Assembly: GCF_030295935.1 (NCBI RefSeq) | Contig: NZ_AP027362.1 | Span: 1,364,001 to 1,428,000, forward strand | Reading direction: 5' to 3' | Length of the DNA stretch: 64,000 nucleotides | DNA from: Thalassotalea piscium | Lineage (GTDB): Bacteria; Pseudomonadota; Gammaproteobacteria; Enterobacterales; Alteromonadaceae | Shown: positions 11,870 to 63,429 of the stretch, one piece after another | Numbering within the stretch: the stretch's first letter is position 1 | Layout of the letters: every line of letters starts with the position of its first letter | Notes under the pieces: model-generated | Database searches by the model: none | What the model was told of the DNA's origin: nothing | Seen by the model: only the letters and a program-made list of their open reading frames with translations | Program-made: the position numbers and the translations under genes

Positions 11870-14800
11870 ATGCAGCGACTGTTATGCTTGCGTATTTGGC
11901 AGGTTTTATTTATCAGTATTAGCGTCTTTAGCGCAACACTACTTGCGTATGAAGAAACAGGTGTACGTATTCGCGGTGCGAAAGCGACTGATGCATATGC
12001 GTTTAGTCAATATGGTCCTATTACTTCACAAGACACCTTGTGGAATATTGCTATTAAAAGCCGTCCTGATCCTAAATTCACCGTATATCAAATGATGCAG
12101 GCAATTTTTATTAAAAACCCGCATGCCTTTAATGATAATAATATTAATCATATGATTGACGGAGAAGTCTTATTATTGCCTTCAATTATTGAGATCGGCA
12201 GAATTGATCCGCTTACGGCAAAACAAAGGTCGGAGCAAGACGATGCCAATTGGAGTGCTGGAAGTAGCAACACTACAACTAAAAATACAGTAAACAAGCA
12301 ACAGTCAATTCAAAAGAAAGACCTCGACGACGCTAAAACTGAAATCAATGAGAAATTGAAAACCTTTGGTAATGATCAAACAAAACAGTTAGAAACAATT
12401 CAGAGGGATGTTCTCGATTCAATCGATGGCTTACAAGCTATTTTAAGAGAAAATGAAAACTTAAGAAATAAACTCAATAGCTTTGATAATCAACTTAATA
12501 CCATGCAGGAAGAAGTTGCGAAAGGTAAAGAGGTAGAATTACAAATGAACAGTGCTAATGCTATGTTGCAGGCGCTGTTAGAAAAAGCTGAAGCGCGCGA
12601 ACAAGAGTTATTATTAGCGAAACAAAAAGCAGAGTTAGAAGGGGAAAGCTTTTTATCAAGCCCAGCCTTTTTAATCATGAGCATTTTGCTTCCTGTGAGC
12701 TTACTGTTAGGTGGAGCATTTTGGTTCTTTAACCGAAAAAAATCAGAAAAATCTACGAATGAACAAGAGTCAAGCATCACAGATACCCTAAATGAAGAAG
12801 GTGATGTTAGTGTTAAGGTCCCTGAGAATGAGTCATTATCTTTAGACGATGAGCTGTCATTAGACGATGAGCTATCGCTTGATGATGAATTATCGCTTGA
12901 TGACGAACTGTCACTTGATGATGAACTGTCTATCGACCTTTCTGAGAATGCTGATGGTGATGACAGTGATCTATTTGCAGATGATTTAGACACGCTTAGC
13001 GAAGAGTTATTAGATGATGATGTAATTCATTTAGATGACGATATTGGTGATCTTGATGATTTAGACGACCTAGAAGAAATCTCTTTGGGCGACGATGGTG
13101 AAGCGTTAGAAGGTGGCGAGCTGGATCAAAGTGATTTAGACTCATTACTCTCAGGTTTAGATGAAGAATCTAGCAACGAAAAAAAAACCACTGAGGAAGA
13201 GCCCCTTGAAGGTGGAACACTAGATCAGAGTGATTTAGATGATTTATTAGTAGATACATCGGATATAGATGAAAGCCTTGAAGATATTCAAGAAGAAAAG
13301 TCAGAGCTGACTGACCCTGATGACATTGATGCTTTAATGGATTCAATGGCAAGTGTACCTAAAGACGAGAATGAAGACGATTCAATTGTTGATGTTGCGG
13401 AAGATGATAGTAACGCAGAATTAACCGATCCCGATGATATTGACGCGCTAATGGACTCAATGGCAGCTGATTCAAAAGCTGCTGAAGACAATGAACCTGT
13501 AGAGCCAGCAGCGGTTGATGATAACGCAGAATTAACCGATCCCGATGATATTGACGCGCTAATGGACTCAATGGCAGCTGATTCAAAAGCTGCTGAAGAC
13601 AATAAGCCTGTAGAGCCAGAAGCAGTTGATGATAACGCAGAATTAACCGATCCCGATGATATTGACGCGCTAATGGACTCAATGGCAGCTGATTCCGAAG
13701 CTGCTGAAGATAATGAACCTTTAGAGCCAGCAGCAGTTGATGATAACGCAGAATTAACAGATCCCGATGATATTGACGCGCTAATGGACTCAATGGCAGC
13801 TGATTCAAAAGCTGCTGAAGATAATACACCTGCAGAGCCAGAAGCAGTTGATGATAACGTAGAATTAACCGATCCCGATGATATTGACGCGCTAATGGAC
13901 TCAATGGCAGCTGATTCCAAAGCTGCTGAATACAATAAGCCTGTAGAGCCAGAAGCGGTTGATGATAACGCAGAATTAACCGATCCTGATGATATTGACG
14001 CGCTAATGGACTCGATGGCAGCTGATTCAAAAGCTGCTGAAGATAATAAAGCTGCAGAGCCAGAAGCGGTTGATGATAATGCAGAATTAACCGATCCCGA
14101 TGATATTGACGCGCTAATGGACTCGATGTTGCCTGACTCAACACCTAATGAGCCTAAATCATCAGAACAAGCAAGCGAAGAGTCAAATTTAGACGAAAAT
14201 CAAGCAAGCGAAGAAAGTGATCATAAAGCGTTAATTGATAACTTTAGTGAAGATTACGTAGCACCATTTCTATCAGCAGATTTCAGCGATATTCTATCAA
14301 GTAATGAACAGGATGAGACTACATTAGCTCAAGAAATTGATGACGAAATTACTCAGGCTATTGATGACGATTCAGATATAGATATTGATGCACTTTTAGC
14401 CGAGAATTCAACTGAGAATCCAGTTGAAGATGAACAAACTGATACTGTAGCAGACGACTTATCAGAAACCGATAATAACTTAGCTATCGAAGATGTATTA
14501 GCTGAAGTTGATAATGCTTTGCTAGATCCATCAACAGAAAAAAAAGAAACACCTGCTGAGGCTGACGGACCAGATTCAAAGCTTCCAGAAGTCAACTTAG
14601 ACGATGTTTTCAATTTAGTAGAAAGTGATGCTGCTGATAGTGTTATTGACCTGTCAAGTGAGGGTATATTTGGTGACAGCCAAGATGCAGACAATACTGA
14701 TAAAGTTGATGATGATATCTTAAAAAGTATTTCAGATGATTTTGATGAATCAACATTATCTGACTTATTAAACGATGATTTATCACCAGACGCTCAGGAA

Positions 14801-23170: not shown

Positions 23171-23233
23171 AAGCTAAACACGCCACTCTATTTTTACATT
23201 GCTTTTGGTAGGCTCGGCTTCCACTTAGCACAA

Positions 23234-23973
23234 TTGTAGATTGGGCTTGTGCCCATCAAATATGGTTTGTATCTGAGCTGAACAACAGAAATTAATTCTG
23301 ACGGTATAAATACCGACCTACAAGTGAGCACAAGACTAAAATAGTGAATAGTTTTGTAGATTGGGCTTTGCCACCACGGATGGCGGTAGTAGGGTAATGC
23401 AGGAGCTATTACCGATAAGCCATTATTTACTTAATTCAATTGTAGGTTGGGCTTCAGCCCATCAAATATGGTTTGTATCTGAGCTGATCAACAAAAACTA
23501 ATGTGACGGTATAAATACCGACCTACAAGTGAGCACAAGACTAAAATAGTGAATAGTTTTGTAGATTGGGCTTTGCCACCACGGATGGCGGTAGTAGGGT
23601 AATGCAGGAGCTATTACCGATAAGCCATTATTTACTTAATTCAATTGTAGGTTGGGCTTCAGCCCATCAAATATGATTTATACTTGAGCTGAACAACAAA
23701 AACTAATGTGACGGTATAAATACCGACCTACAAGTGAGCACAAGACTAAAATAGTGAATAGTTTTGTAGGTTGGGCTTGTGCCCATCAAATATGGTTTGT
23801 ATCTGAGCTGAACAACAGAAATTAATTCTGACGGTATAAATACCGACCTACAAGTGAGCACAAGACTAAAATAGTGAATAGTTTTGTAGGTTGGGCTTGT
23901 GCCCATCAAATATGGTTTGTATCTGAGCAGATCAACAAAAATTAATTCTGACGGTATAAATACCGACCTACAA
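23234..23973. repeat. Array of five 90-bp folded palindromic repeats
   Basis: Core units lie at 23234-23323, 23440-23528, 23645-23733, 23764-23853 and 23884-23973. Each begins TTGTAGRTTGGGC and ends CGACCTACAA, so the ends pair. Inside each are two further hairpins, GGGCTT..GCCC and CGGTATAAATACCG, so a single strand can fold into a three-way junction. The last three are separated by 30-bp spacers (120-bp period). The first gaps are 116 bp and contain an extra module with TTTGCCACC..GGTGGC-like and GGTAATGC..GCTATTACC pairing; the two 116-bp gaps appear identical. The array fills the ubiI-gcvT intergenic region. The long frame on the minus strand here is an artefact of the repeats. Confidence 0.92.
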
Positions 23974-24180
23974 GTATGTTCCTCATTATAATGGCTGTAT
24001 AAATGCCTACCTTCTTCACCTCTCATTATTTAATTTACATCATCTGCTGAATTTTCTTTGTTGGAATATGTAAATTACTTGTTTTTATCAGAATAACATT
24101 GTTTTTGTGATGTAAAATAAAATTATGTTCGGAATAATTCTTTTTTATGGTTTTATATTTCAATTTAGCAATTTTACTTG

Positions 24181-58924: not shown

Positions 58925-61018
58925 ATGGAATCGAGTAAAATTAATCATATAAGTCACGAGTTTATTATTAATGACCCACTTCATCAGTTGTTTGATGCGG
59001 TAGCTGCTATATCAGTGCAAGGTTATGATGAACAACGCAGAGTAATTTATTGGAACCTTGGTAGTGAATTACTTTATGGGTATTCTAAAGAAGAAGCCTT
59101 CGGCAATAAACTCGAAGATCTTATTATTCCACATGCAATGCGTGAAGGGGTTATACAAGCGCATAGTAAGTGGATAAATAAAGGAATAGAAATTCCCGCA
59201 GCTGAAATTACGTTAAATAATAAAGATGGTTCTGATGTTAATGTTTTTTCCAGCCATGTAATGTTTATTAATCAATATAATAAAAAACAAATGTATTGTA
59301 TTGATATTGATTTAAAGGCGGTTAAAACAGCCCAAGCAGAGGCGTTATTACGTGGGAAGATGCTTGCCACTGTACTTGAGGCCACCCCTGATCTCTTCTT
59401 TTTAATGGAAGAAAACGGCACTATTATTGATTATCATGCAAGTGATAAAAGTTACCTCAGGCTACCTCCAAATAAATTTTTGGGTAAGTCAATGCTAGCT
59501 ATGTTACCAAAGGCAATCGCCGCTGAATTTAAATTAAACCTAGATAAAGCTATTGAACAACAAGGCGTTGCAAGTTTTATTTATGAGTTAACTATGCCTC
59601 ATGGGCTTGTTAACTTTGAAGCAAGAATTAGCCACTTACCTGAGCACAAACATGTAGTTACGATTGTGCGTGATGTAACCGAACAGCATAAGACGGCTGA
59701 GGTTATTCGCAAACATGCATATTTTGATACATTAACGCTACTACCTAACCGATTTTTATCACTTGATCGTTTAGACAAAATGTTACAAGAGGCTAAAAGA
59801 CATAATGAAAAAGCCGCTGTATTCTTTCTTGATTTAGACGATTTCAAAAAGGTTAACGACACACTAGGACATGAGGTTGGGGATACCTTACTTAAAGAGG
59901 CTTCTAAAAGGTTAAATCAAGTTATTAGGGAGGAAGACACTGTTGGTCGCTTGGGTGGTGACGAGTTTATTGTGTTAACTAAAAGTTTAACCAATAAAAA
60001 CAGTGCGTTATCAATTGTTGAAAAGTTGCTTAATGCGTTTAGAGAGCCTTTTAGTATTAATGGCCGAGAATTAATAATCACATTGAGTGTTGGTATAGCG
60101 GTTTACCCTGAAAATGGCACAAATGCTTCAGACCTTTTGCGCAATGCAGATACTGCGATGTATCAAGCAAAAGCTTTAGGACGTAATTCACATTCGTTTT
60201 TCACTAAAGAAATGAATGTGGGAATATTACGCAGGTTTGAAATTGAAGAGCAAATGCGGGGTGCGCTCGAACGTAAAGAGTTTGAGGTTTATTATCAACC
60301 TCAGTTTAATGTTGAAAGTGGGGCTGTTATTGGTGCCGAGGCTTTACTTCGATGGCATAACCAATCATTAGGTACTATTACCCCCGATGAGTTTATACCT
60401 ATTGCTGAGCATACAGGGTTAATTGTTGATATTGGTCGGTTTGTAATTGAGCAAGCCTTAGACTTTTTAAACACATGGCAAATGCAAAGTAAGCAACACT
60501 ATACGATGGCGGTTAATTTATCACCTCGCCAATTTAGAGATAATCAATTACTGTCATTTATTAAAAGTGCGTTACAGCAATCTAATATACCCGCCGAATA
60601 TTTGGAGTTAGAAATAACTGAGGGTGTTTTAATGACAGGGCAATCATTTATTGATGATACGTTAGCTCAAATTAATGCCGCAGGAATAAAGCTATCAATG
60701 GATGACTTTGGCACGGGTTATTCATCATTAAGTTATTTACGCCAATACGATTTCGATGTATTAAAAATAGATCGAAGCTTTGTCAATGGAATTGCGCTTA
60801 ATAAAGCTGATAGAGATTTGGTGAAAGCTGCCGTAGCGATGGCACATAGTCTTGACTTAATGGTAGTTGCTGAAGGTGTTGAAACTAAGGAACAGCTGAC
60901 AATATTAGAAGAGTTTAATTGTGATTATGCGCAAGGGTATTATTTTAGCAAGCCATTACCCGCAAAAGCGTTTATTAAATTTGTTAACACATATACTTAT
61001 AAGTTTGGTAAGCAATGA
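58925..61018 (+). CDS. PAS-PAS-GGDEF-EAL cyclic-di-GMP protein
   Basis: 697-residue cytoplasmic signalling protein without membrane segments. Two PAS domains (about 10-125 and 140-255) precede a GGDEF domain (about 262-420; motif RLGGDEF near residue 341, substrate site DLDDFKKVNDTLGHEVGD intact) and an EAL domain (about 440-690). The EAL domain keeps AEALLRWH, LELEITEGVLM, the DDFGTGYSSLSYL loop and LKIDRSFV, so both synthesis and breakdown of c-di-GMP are possible. The PAS ligand is unknown. It stands alone and is convergent with the broken PAS-GGDEF gene. Confidence 0.94.
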   Translation: MESSKINHISHEFIINDPLHQLFDAVAAISVQGYDEQRRVIYWNLGSELLYGYSKEEAFGNKLEDLIIPHAMREGVIQAHSKWINKGIEIPAAEITLNNKDGSDVNVFSSHVMFINQYNKKQMYCIDIDLKAVKTAQAEALLRGKMLATVLEATPDLFFLMEENGTIIDYHASDKSYLRLPPNKFLGKSMLAMLPKAIAAEFKLNLDKAIEQQGVASFIYELTMPHGLVNFEARISHLPEHKHVVTIVRDVTEQHKTAEVIRKHAYFDTLTLLPNRFLSLDRLDKMLQEAKRHNEKAAVFFLDLDDFKKVNDTLGHEVGDTLLKEASKRLNQVIREEDTVGRLGGDEFIVLTKSLTNKNSALSIVEKLLNAFREPFSINGRELIITLSVGIAVYPENGTNASDLLRNADTAMYQAKALGRNSHSFFTKEMNVGILRRFEIEEQMRGALERKEFEVYYQPQFNVESGAVIGAEALLRWHNQSLGTITPDEFIPIAEHTGLIVDIGRFVIEQALDFLNTWQMQSKQHYTMAVNLSPRQFRDNQLLSFIKSALQQSNIPAEYLELEITEGVLMTGQSFIDDTLAQINAAGIKLSMDDFGTGYSSLSYLRQYDFDVLKIDRSFVNGIALNKADRDLVKAAVAMAHSLDLMVVAEGVETKEQLTILEEFNCDYAQGYYFSKPLPAKAFIKFVNTYTYKFGKQ

Positions 61019-61123: not shown

Positions 61124-62331
61124 CTAGGTATACAAAACTGTATTTCTTCCTTTTAGCTTGGCTTGATTCAAATGTTTATCTGCTAGAAGGATCATTTGCT
61201 CAAAAGAGGTGATTTCTTTAGAGTTTTCAACCATTCCTATTGATGTAGTTATTGCAAGTTTTTGAGCTTCAAAGGGAATTTCGAGTGATTCAACCGAGCT
61301 TCTTATTCGTTCAGCAATAACATAGCCTAGTTCAGCTTCAGTAGCTGGCAGTAAGATAGCAAACTCTTCGCCACCAATGCGTGCGAAAAGGTCGTAATCT
61401 CTTATTAATTTATTTATAATCCTAATAACAGTACGGACAACTTTGTTTCTTCTCTTTTGCTACGATTAAACTCCGCTCTACCTTTTTCATAAAAGTAGCG
61501 TCTATTACGAATGCCTGTTAAATAATCGGTTGTAGCAAGTTGTTCAAGCTCTTGTGACATTACTGTAAGTTTATGTTCGTATTTTTTCTTCTCAGTTATA
61601 TCAGTAACATAGGTATATAAATAATTGTTTTGTACAATTTGCTCTGTAACAATAAAGTGTGCACCTTGAGCGGTATCTGTTTCAAATGTGCGGTAATTAC
61701 TTTTTCTTCTTTTTGATAAAGCCATTTCCATCCAAGCATTAAAATCCTCAGATTCAATATTGATGCCCAACTTGCTATTAAAGCAACTGAAACATAATTG
61801 TGAAAATGTTTTGTGAAGAGCTTCGGTTGCAGTAACGCCAAAAATTATTGCGAGTGCATCATTACAAAATATAAGCCTGTCTTCAGGATCGAAGATTCCA
61901 ACACCATCATTTGTTAACAAAATTGATTCAATTAGGGTCTGTTGATCTTTCATTTTAGCCTCTGCTATAGACTATTTTTTAAGATAACAAGGCGAAAATG
62001 GTGCAATGTAGCATTCTCGGCTTTGGCATCCTGCGTCGCTCTACCTTCTGCATCCGTGCAGTCGTACTTTAACCATTTTTAACGATGTTAGGTTGAAAAA
62101 TAGTCATAGCCCTTTGGGTTGCCTTGAAAAAGCGTCACTCTTTGTTGCCTACAGGATGTAGGTACTTAACGAGAGCAGGACGCGGCAGTTGTACTTAATG
62201 TGCATTTGGAACAACCAAACATTACATTAAGTGCCTCGACTGTCATCTTTTTCAAATGCAACAGAGCTATAAACTGAAAGATCAACAGACCCTAATATAT
62301 CTTCTATTTTATTATTTAATTGTTTTGTCAT
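61124..62331 (-). pseudogene. Broken PAS-GGDEF diguanylate cyclase
   Basis: The original gene starts at ATG 62331 (MTKQLNNKIEDIL) and ends at TAG 61126-61124. Two lesions are visible. A 358-bp family C element (61935-62292) interrupts codon 13; removing it with one TA restores the frame as ..IEDIL-IESILLTNDGVG. Near 61414-61430 the frame stops after KLSVLLLGL, while RIINKLIRDYDLFARIGGEE continues in another frame. About 20-25 codons that should carry the metal-binding Asp and FKxINDxxGHxxGD region are missing. CTGTTATTA at the joint suggests a deletion between short repeats. A shorter open frame (61414-61953) starts within the element and contains only the PAS domain and the GGDEF beginning. 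Confidence 0.88.
61935..62292. mobile_element. MITE-like element, family C, copy 3, inside the PAS-GGDEF gene
   Basis: 358 bp with inverted ends GGGTCTGTTGATCTTTCA / TGAAAGATCAACAGACCC and a TA duplication (61933-61934, 62293-62294). The duplication is confirmed by the host frame, which is restored exactly when one copy is removed. It has no transposase frame. The minus-strand ATG in its end (61953) creates a new start MKDQQTL for the downstream part of the gene. Confidence 0.88.
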
Positions 62332-62751: not shown

Positions 62752-63429
62752 TTGACTTTTGCACAAAGCACTTACTCAGAAGATAACACTTTTCTTTTTG
62801 AGTCAATCGCTACAGACATAGCAGATAAAGGCTTTAGCATTCGCCCTTATGCACTTCCTGAAAGCTTAGCCACTTTACTTTTACAGCATATTAATACGTT
62901 GTCAGATGACCAATTTAAGCGTGCAGGTATTGGTCGAGCTAACGATCACATGATCAACGATTTTATTCGCTTAGATGAAATTTGCTGGATAACAGGTACT
63001 AGCGATGCTGGAACTGCATGGATAAAATGGGCTGAATTATTACAAACCTATCTAAATAGGCATTTATTTCTTGGCTTATTTTCTTTTGAAAGTCACTTTG
63101 CTCATTATGCAAAAGGTGACTTTTATAAAAAGCACAAAGATGCATTTAAGGGTGAAGGTAACCGAGTGTTGTCTGTTGTCGTTTATTTGAACCCTAATTG
63201 GTCATCAGAAGATGGTGGCGAATTAGTTATTTATGACCAAAACACATCAGAATCATCTCTTCTTAATAATAACAAAATTACGGTTTCCCCAAGCTTTGGT
63301 ACCATAGTGGTGTTTCTTAGTGAAGATTTTCCGCACGAAGTATTACCTGCACAACGTGACCGCTACTCTATTGCGGGTTGGTTTCGTTTGAATAACAGTA
63401 TTGCCAATAATATTGATCCACCAAGTTAG
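62752..63429 (+). CDS. 2-oxoglutarate/Fe(II)-dependent oxygenase, prolyl 4-hydroxylase-like
   Basis: 225 residues with the P4Hc-type double-stranded beta-helix. The iron ligands HxD can be read in FYKKHKDAFKGEGNR (about residue 128), and the distal His and 2OG Arg in FPHEVLPAQRDRYSIAGWFR near the C-terminus; GNRVLSVVVYLNPNW and DGGELVIY are family strands. The target (protein prolyl, as in EF-Tu or ribosomal protein hydroxylases, or a small molecule) is unknown. The start is TTG 62752, with AAGGA 9 bp upstream. It is followed at 25 bp by the CTG-start gene, probably in one operon. Confidence 0.88.
   Translation: MTFAQSTYSEDNTFLFESIATDIADKGFSIRPYALPESLATLLLQHINTLSDDQFKRAGIGRANDHMINDFIRLDEICWITGTSDAGTAWIKWAELLQTYLNRHLFLGLFSFESHFAHYAKGDFYKKHKDAFKGEGNRVLSVVVYLNPNWSSEDGGELVIYDQNTSESSLLNNNKITVSPSFGTIVVFLSEDFPHEVLPAQRDRYSIAGWFRLNNSIANNIDPPS

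Follow-up and report, generated by a model that had tools for sequence, protein, structure and literature searches.

A PAS-GGDEF diguanylate cyclase gene disrupted by MITE insertion and by a separate small deletion

Interrupted cyclase locus

Do two adjacent reading frames, one with a PAS domain and one with part of a GGDEF domain, represent two proteins, a remodelled sensor or the remains of one gene? The locus lies in a stretch of 64,000 nucleotides (the window) from a Colwellia-related marine bacterium whose genome is a single closed contig of 3.90 Mb with 0.15% contamination. As the initial annotation had it, the pieces extend on the minus strand from a start codon at 62331 to the end of the last stop at 61124. 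On the plus strand, a GGDEF-EAL gene at 58925-61018 lies on one side of them and a gene for a 2OG-Fe(II) oxygenase at 62752-63429 on the other. All of the evidence is consistent with a cyclase gene that was disrupted by a MITE and, in a separate event, by a small deletion. We are very confident that the locus was once a gene of about 300 codons for a PAS-GGDEF diguanylate cyclase and became a pseudogene through two independent events (Table 1); it is properly annotated as such, rather than as one protein with PAS and another with GGDEF.

Table 1. Features of the broken cyclase gene and of the element within it, in window coordinates.
Feature	Positions	Strand	Basis
5' cyclase fragment (ATG, MTKQLNNKIEDI..)	62294..62331	-	Sequence and translation
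TA target duplication, one side	61933..61934	.	Sequence; TA on both sides in 18/22 copies
TA target duplication, other side	62293..62294	.	Sequence; TA on both sides in 18/22 copies
MITE GGGTCTG...CAGACCC, 358 nt (360-nt subfamily, counting flanking A/T)	61935..62292	.	Inverted repeats; 22 complete copies aligned
Module 1, 48-nt palindrome in MITE	62017..62064	+	Clean absence from 266-nt copy L016; in frame in pglX; other genera
Module 2, 46 nt in MITE	62146..62191	-	Absent from 314- and 267-nt copies; genome copies in GGGTCTG-/GGGCGTG-ended elements
AGAGG and ATG reading outward at MITE end	61951..61963	-	Sequence; accessibility computed
179-aa ORF MKDQQTL...: PAS, truncated GGDEF, frameshift stop	61414..61953	-	ORF list; Pfam PAS_7, GGDEF positions 1-39
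PAS domain	61576..61911	-	PF12860, residues 15-126
76-nt deletion joint (GTTATTAG)	61422..61429	-	Alignment with ten relatives
3' GGDEF relic with GGEEF, out of frame	61124..61438	-	PF00990 positions 60-160, E 2.3e-20

The terminal arms of the element (61931-61957 and 62270-62296, 27 nt each) are 96% complementary, and its single-strand fold is much stronger than those of shuffled sequences (z -7.2). The ORF list contains no transposase-sized ORF within the 358 nt. Short, without a transposase, bounded by 27-nt terminal inverted repeats (TIRs) and a TA duplication, and present in 22 complete copies, the element is the MITE it had been called. It is not a chance structure, since the genome has at least 22 complete copies and the TIR pattern, allowing up to two mismatches, gave 91 matches against 0 for a reversed control. 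Insertion was after codon 13 of the cyclase gene, and leaving out the MITE with one TA rejoins the frame exactly as proposed (..IEDIL-IESILL..), giving an empty-site ORF of 191 aa that ends at the deletion. In this event a non-autonomous MITE inserted at TTAA and duplicated TA; a DDE transposase that targets TA probably acted on it in trans.

Intact PAS-GGDEF relatives occur in Colwellia hornerae (L061, 302 aa) and in another genus of the family (genome G027; L032, 307 aa). Both have PAS and a full GGDEF in Pfam and are 56-57% identical to the broken cyclase. Their N-termini begin MADISIEKIIIESLALTKDGVG in the C. hornerae protein and MIESASNHTLQLLAKSLLLTKDGVG in the G027 protein, and they match the predicted join at codon 13 in length and frame, which was the comparison called for by the initial annotation. 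The genus of the broken gene is represented by one genome, with no near-identical lesion-free strain in the comparison. Because these closest copies are 56-57% identical and sit in other gene neighbourhoods (not syntenic), the join is backed by family length and frame and not by a near-identical allele. The relatives resemble the broken gene in domain order (PAS, then GGDEF), in N-terminal length before PAS and in GGDEF spacing; they differ in being intact, whereas the copy here is split by the element and lacks 76 nt.

Loss of the GGDEF active site

In the two closest intact relatives, 41 residues (123 nt) separate the serine of SVLLL from the aspartate of RDYD. The same span is 47 nt in the broken gene, so 76 nt (25 1/3 codons) are missing; the loss first suggested was 20-25 codons. 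From the b1 strand to the RxYD preceding GGEEF, ten related PAS-GGDEF proteins align without any indel. The lost segment includes the D-x-D...N-D...G-D motif of the active site, and the resulting frameshift leads to a stop ending at 61414. The 3' part, GGEEF included, runs on to 61124 in a different frame; for this relic the ORF list has no start that would give an ORF of at least 40 aa.

Profile searches agree with the earlier description of a deletion that takes out the metal-binding part and shifts the frame, leaving the GGEEF downstream. In the genome GGDEF search the locus gives two separate matches, to profile positions 1-41 and to 57-160; Pfam assigns PAS and GGDEF 1-39 to the first piece and GGDEF 60-160 to the second. 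No complete in-frame GGDEF domain, with its metal- and GTP-binding D, N and D and its GG(D/E)EF, is therefore present, profile positions of approximately 42-56 being absent. A PAS domain is recognized by PF12860 (E 4.9e-6), just over the cut-off of that profile. The conserved tyrosine of L-Y-x-A-K is an asparagine in the 3' relic (LNQAK), as expected of relaxed constraint. The deletion took out the part of the domain that binds metal and GTP, which lies between strand b1 and the GGEEF loop. It probably arose at a short repeat, through slippage or end-joining, with GTTATTAG left at the joint. Judging from the family, the insertion alone or the deletion alone should abolish cyclase activity. Both lesions look recent, since the pieces show no other stop or frameshift.

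The frame break at the deletion could instead be a sequencing or assembly error, leaving only the MITE insertion as real; the sequence does come from one genome, as deposited. We think this highly improbable. A loss of 76 nt is not a one-base homopolymer error and is atypical of assembly errors, the coding sequence is intact on both sides of the joint, and the genome is closed and has the low contamination given above.

With two inactivating events preferred, the gene itself is a case of ordinary decay, one more lost member of a large signalling family. A GGDEF profile scan of the genome gave 47 matches, two of them pieces of the broken gene, which corresponds to about 46 GGDEF genes with the broken one included. 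Loss of the cyclase was probably buffered by the approximately 45 other GGDEF domains. An Rfam scan of the window matched only 6S RNA.

A start codon at the element end

At the end of the MITE, AGAGGCTAAA is followed by ATG AAA GAT CAA CAG, which is in frame with PAS in this copy, and an AGAGG sits 5 nt before the ATG. The initial annotation proposed that this start (MKDQQTL) could give a PAS-only product of about 179 residues. Both the start and the ORF exist (179 aa in the ORF list); the product fares less well. RNA read through the MITE is predicted to have its start codon largely paired with the other arm (unpaired probability of A/U/G 0.55/0.02/0.00), and the predicted fold of an RNA begun at 61985 leaves the start codon mostly free. 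No sigma-70-like site was found on that strand of the MITE or in the sequence leading directly into the new start. A PAS-only product is thus possible and not favoured by these predictions, as it would need a transcript starting very near the MITE end.

A stronger version would hold that the locus was remodelled and not killed, the MITE end supplying a ribosome binding site and start for a regulatory 179-aa PAS-only sensor. The spacing of AGAGG and ATG, the frame shared with PAS, and a PAS part that is free of stops and still recognized by Pfam all speak for such remodelling. Against it, the AUG and its Shine-Dalgarno sequence are largely paired in the predicted read-through RNA, the MITE lacks a sigma-70-like promoter on that strand, and the protein would finish with a broken piece of GGDEF and have no partner domain. 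In addition, a long read-out from the MITE start occurs in only one of the 22 copies, the other 21 giving at most 43 residues. The in-frame start is for that reason best attributed to chance, and the MITE was rejected as a general donor of start codons. We regard remodelling as very unlikely and retain the pseudogene reading.

The element family

The complete copies, at least 22 in the genome, comprise seven of about 360 nt, eight of about 314 nt and seven of about 267 nt. The seven 360-nt copies are 98.6-100% identical, one being identical to the copy in the cyclase gene (L001, L002), and because of this identity they have probably spread recently. Insertions target YTAR, and 18 of the 22 copies have the TA duplicated. 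Of 147 genomes from the family, 24 contain the exact TIR, and they belong to 13 of 52 genera. For one other copy (L009, contig 972703-973017), the empty site has a 231-aa ORF, and the insertion point falls approximately 10 codons into it.

The small size, lack of a transposase, near-perfect TIRs, TA duplication at YTAR and many near-identical copies are those of bacterial TA-target MITEs with IS-like ends; unlike those, the element in the cyclase gene has no parent IS that we could find in the genome. No autonomous IS with the same ends was found in the host genome or in the relatives examined. None of the ORFs beside single TIRs, and no member of the DDE_Tnp_1 family, fits as the partner transposase, and IS630-type DDE_3 and IS5-type DUF4096 have zero matches in the genome. 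Among 48 loci of relatives, inverted TIR pairs spanning an ORF were few, and with one end degenerate they are likely due to neighbouring genes or chance. TIRs at contig ends in genome G166 look like collapsed MITE copies and not an IS. A nine-copy, 1490-bp IS was ruled out as the parent by its other ends and its 9-bp duplication.

The nine near-identical copies of that IS in the host genome (L188-L196) encode a 470-aa DDE transposase and have Tn5/IS50-like ends and perfect 9-bp duplications; it is recently active and unrelated to the MITE. A search of open-licence papers found no literature on the MITE or on the 48-nt unit described below.

Palindromic modules within the element

The 267-, 314- and 360-nt forms differ by clean palindromic inserts of 48 nt (module 1, between CATTC and TAC) and 46 nt (module 2, before TAC). 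With the two modules set aside, L016 (266 nt) matches one of the 360-nt copies at every position. Gain of the modules is probably the simpler direction, because the older, more diverged 267-nt copies carry neither. These clean pairs with and without the inserts, which show short palindromic units entering a MITE, make the element more important than the gene it interrupts.

Allowing up to three mismatches, the genome has 48 occurrences of module 2 or its close variant, and the sites examined adjoin the TIR of this MITE family or of a second family with the TIR GGGCGTGTTGATCTTTC. For module 1, 15 of 78 genomes from the order gave matches; the flanking sequences differ, and some of the occurrences lie within such elements while others do not. 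The module is a short palindrome found at unrelated sites: across 25 contexts its ends are conserved and identity drops outside the unit. The two modules share the layout GCRTCCTGC...CATCC, which is suggestive of a relationship between them and may indicate one. As candidates for a linked RAYT transposase, the genome has two Y1_Tnp genes, and the 2-2.5 kb stretches around them contain no module match.

The second family (sister family B; L118-L124, L133, L134), with ends GGGCGTGTTGATCTTTC, contains one to four tandem palindromic units with a 47-nt period. At one locus (L125 84-755), a GGGTCTG-ended and a GGGCGTG-ended MITE abut, separated by a single TA, one having inserted at the end of the other.

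Pneumococcal BOX elements have the layout boxA-boxB(n)-boxC (PMC3049150). Like family B, they are short repeats built of modules in which the number of internal units varies; they differ in sequence and host, and units of the module class also occur outside elements. Rickettsia palindromic elements (RPEs; PMC10969869) and the GTAG-15 dimer REPs of A. variabilis (PMC3733652) are similar in being short palindromes that lie in frame in ORFs or are nested in larger palindromes. RPEs are about 150 nt, in contrast to the 48 nt of module 1 with its boundaries CGACTGC...AGCCGA. The module 1 sequence was not found in the open-licence papers searched.

Module 1 in BREX pglX

Module 1 is also present, at 96% identity, in the BREX gene pglX of a Moellerella plasmid (NZ_CP093250) and a Salmonella plasmid (NZ_CP133280). 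The Moellerella gene is longer than its counterpart on a Salmonella IncY plasmid by exactly 48 nt, an in-frame insert bounded by the ends that the module has in the MITE. In NZ_CP133280 the Salmonella copy shows an additional local rearrangement. In both genes (L249 1501-1549, L250 1501-1549) the unit amounts to 16 in-frame residues, which are absent from three other aligned plasmid pglX genes. A phage-defence gene on enterobacterial plasmids, in another order, carries in frame the 48-nt unit of the MITE with unchanged ends.

On balance we lean toward a composite origin for the MITE, in which a 267-nt TA-target core would have gained 46-48-nt palindromic mobile units in two steps, at two sites and in inverted orientation. 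Unit 1 would then be an undescribed discrete mobile repeat of the Alteromonadales that inserts without a scar, that also forms the 16-residue in-frame insert in BREX pglX of the Moellerella and Salmonella plasmids, and that has hitch-hiked to high copy inside MITEs. The MITE and pglX pairs together offer a concrete system for asking how REP- and RPE-like units move.

Other repeats in the window

Two further repeats occur in the window. At 23231-23975 is a tandem array of 205- and 120-nt units of high identity that contain TTGTAGGTTGGGCTT...CCATCAAATATGG. A 111-nt (37-codon) tandem repeat at 13411-14128, in 6.5 copies that are 93% identical, is probably within the gene for an acidic protein.
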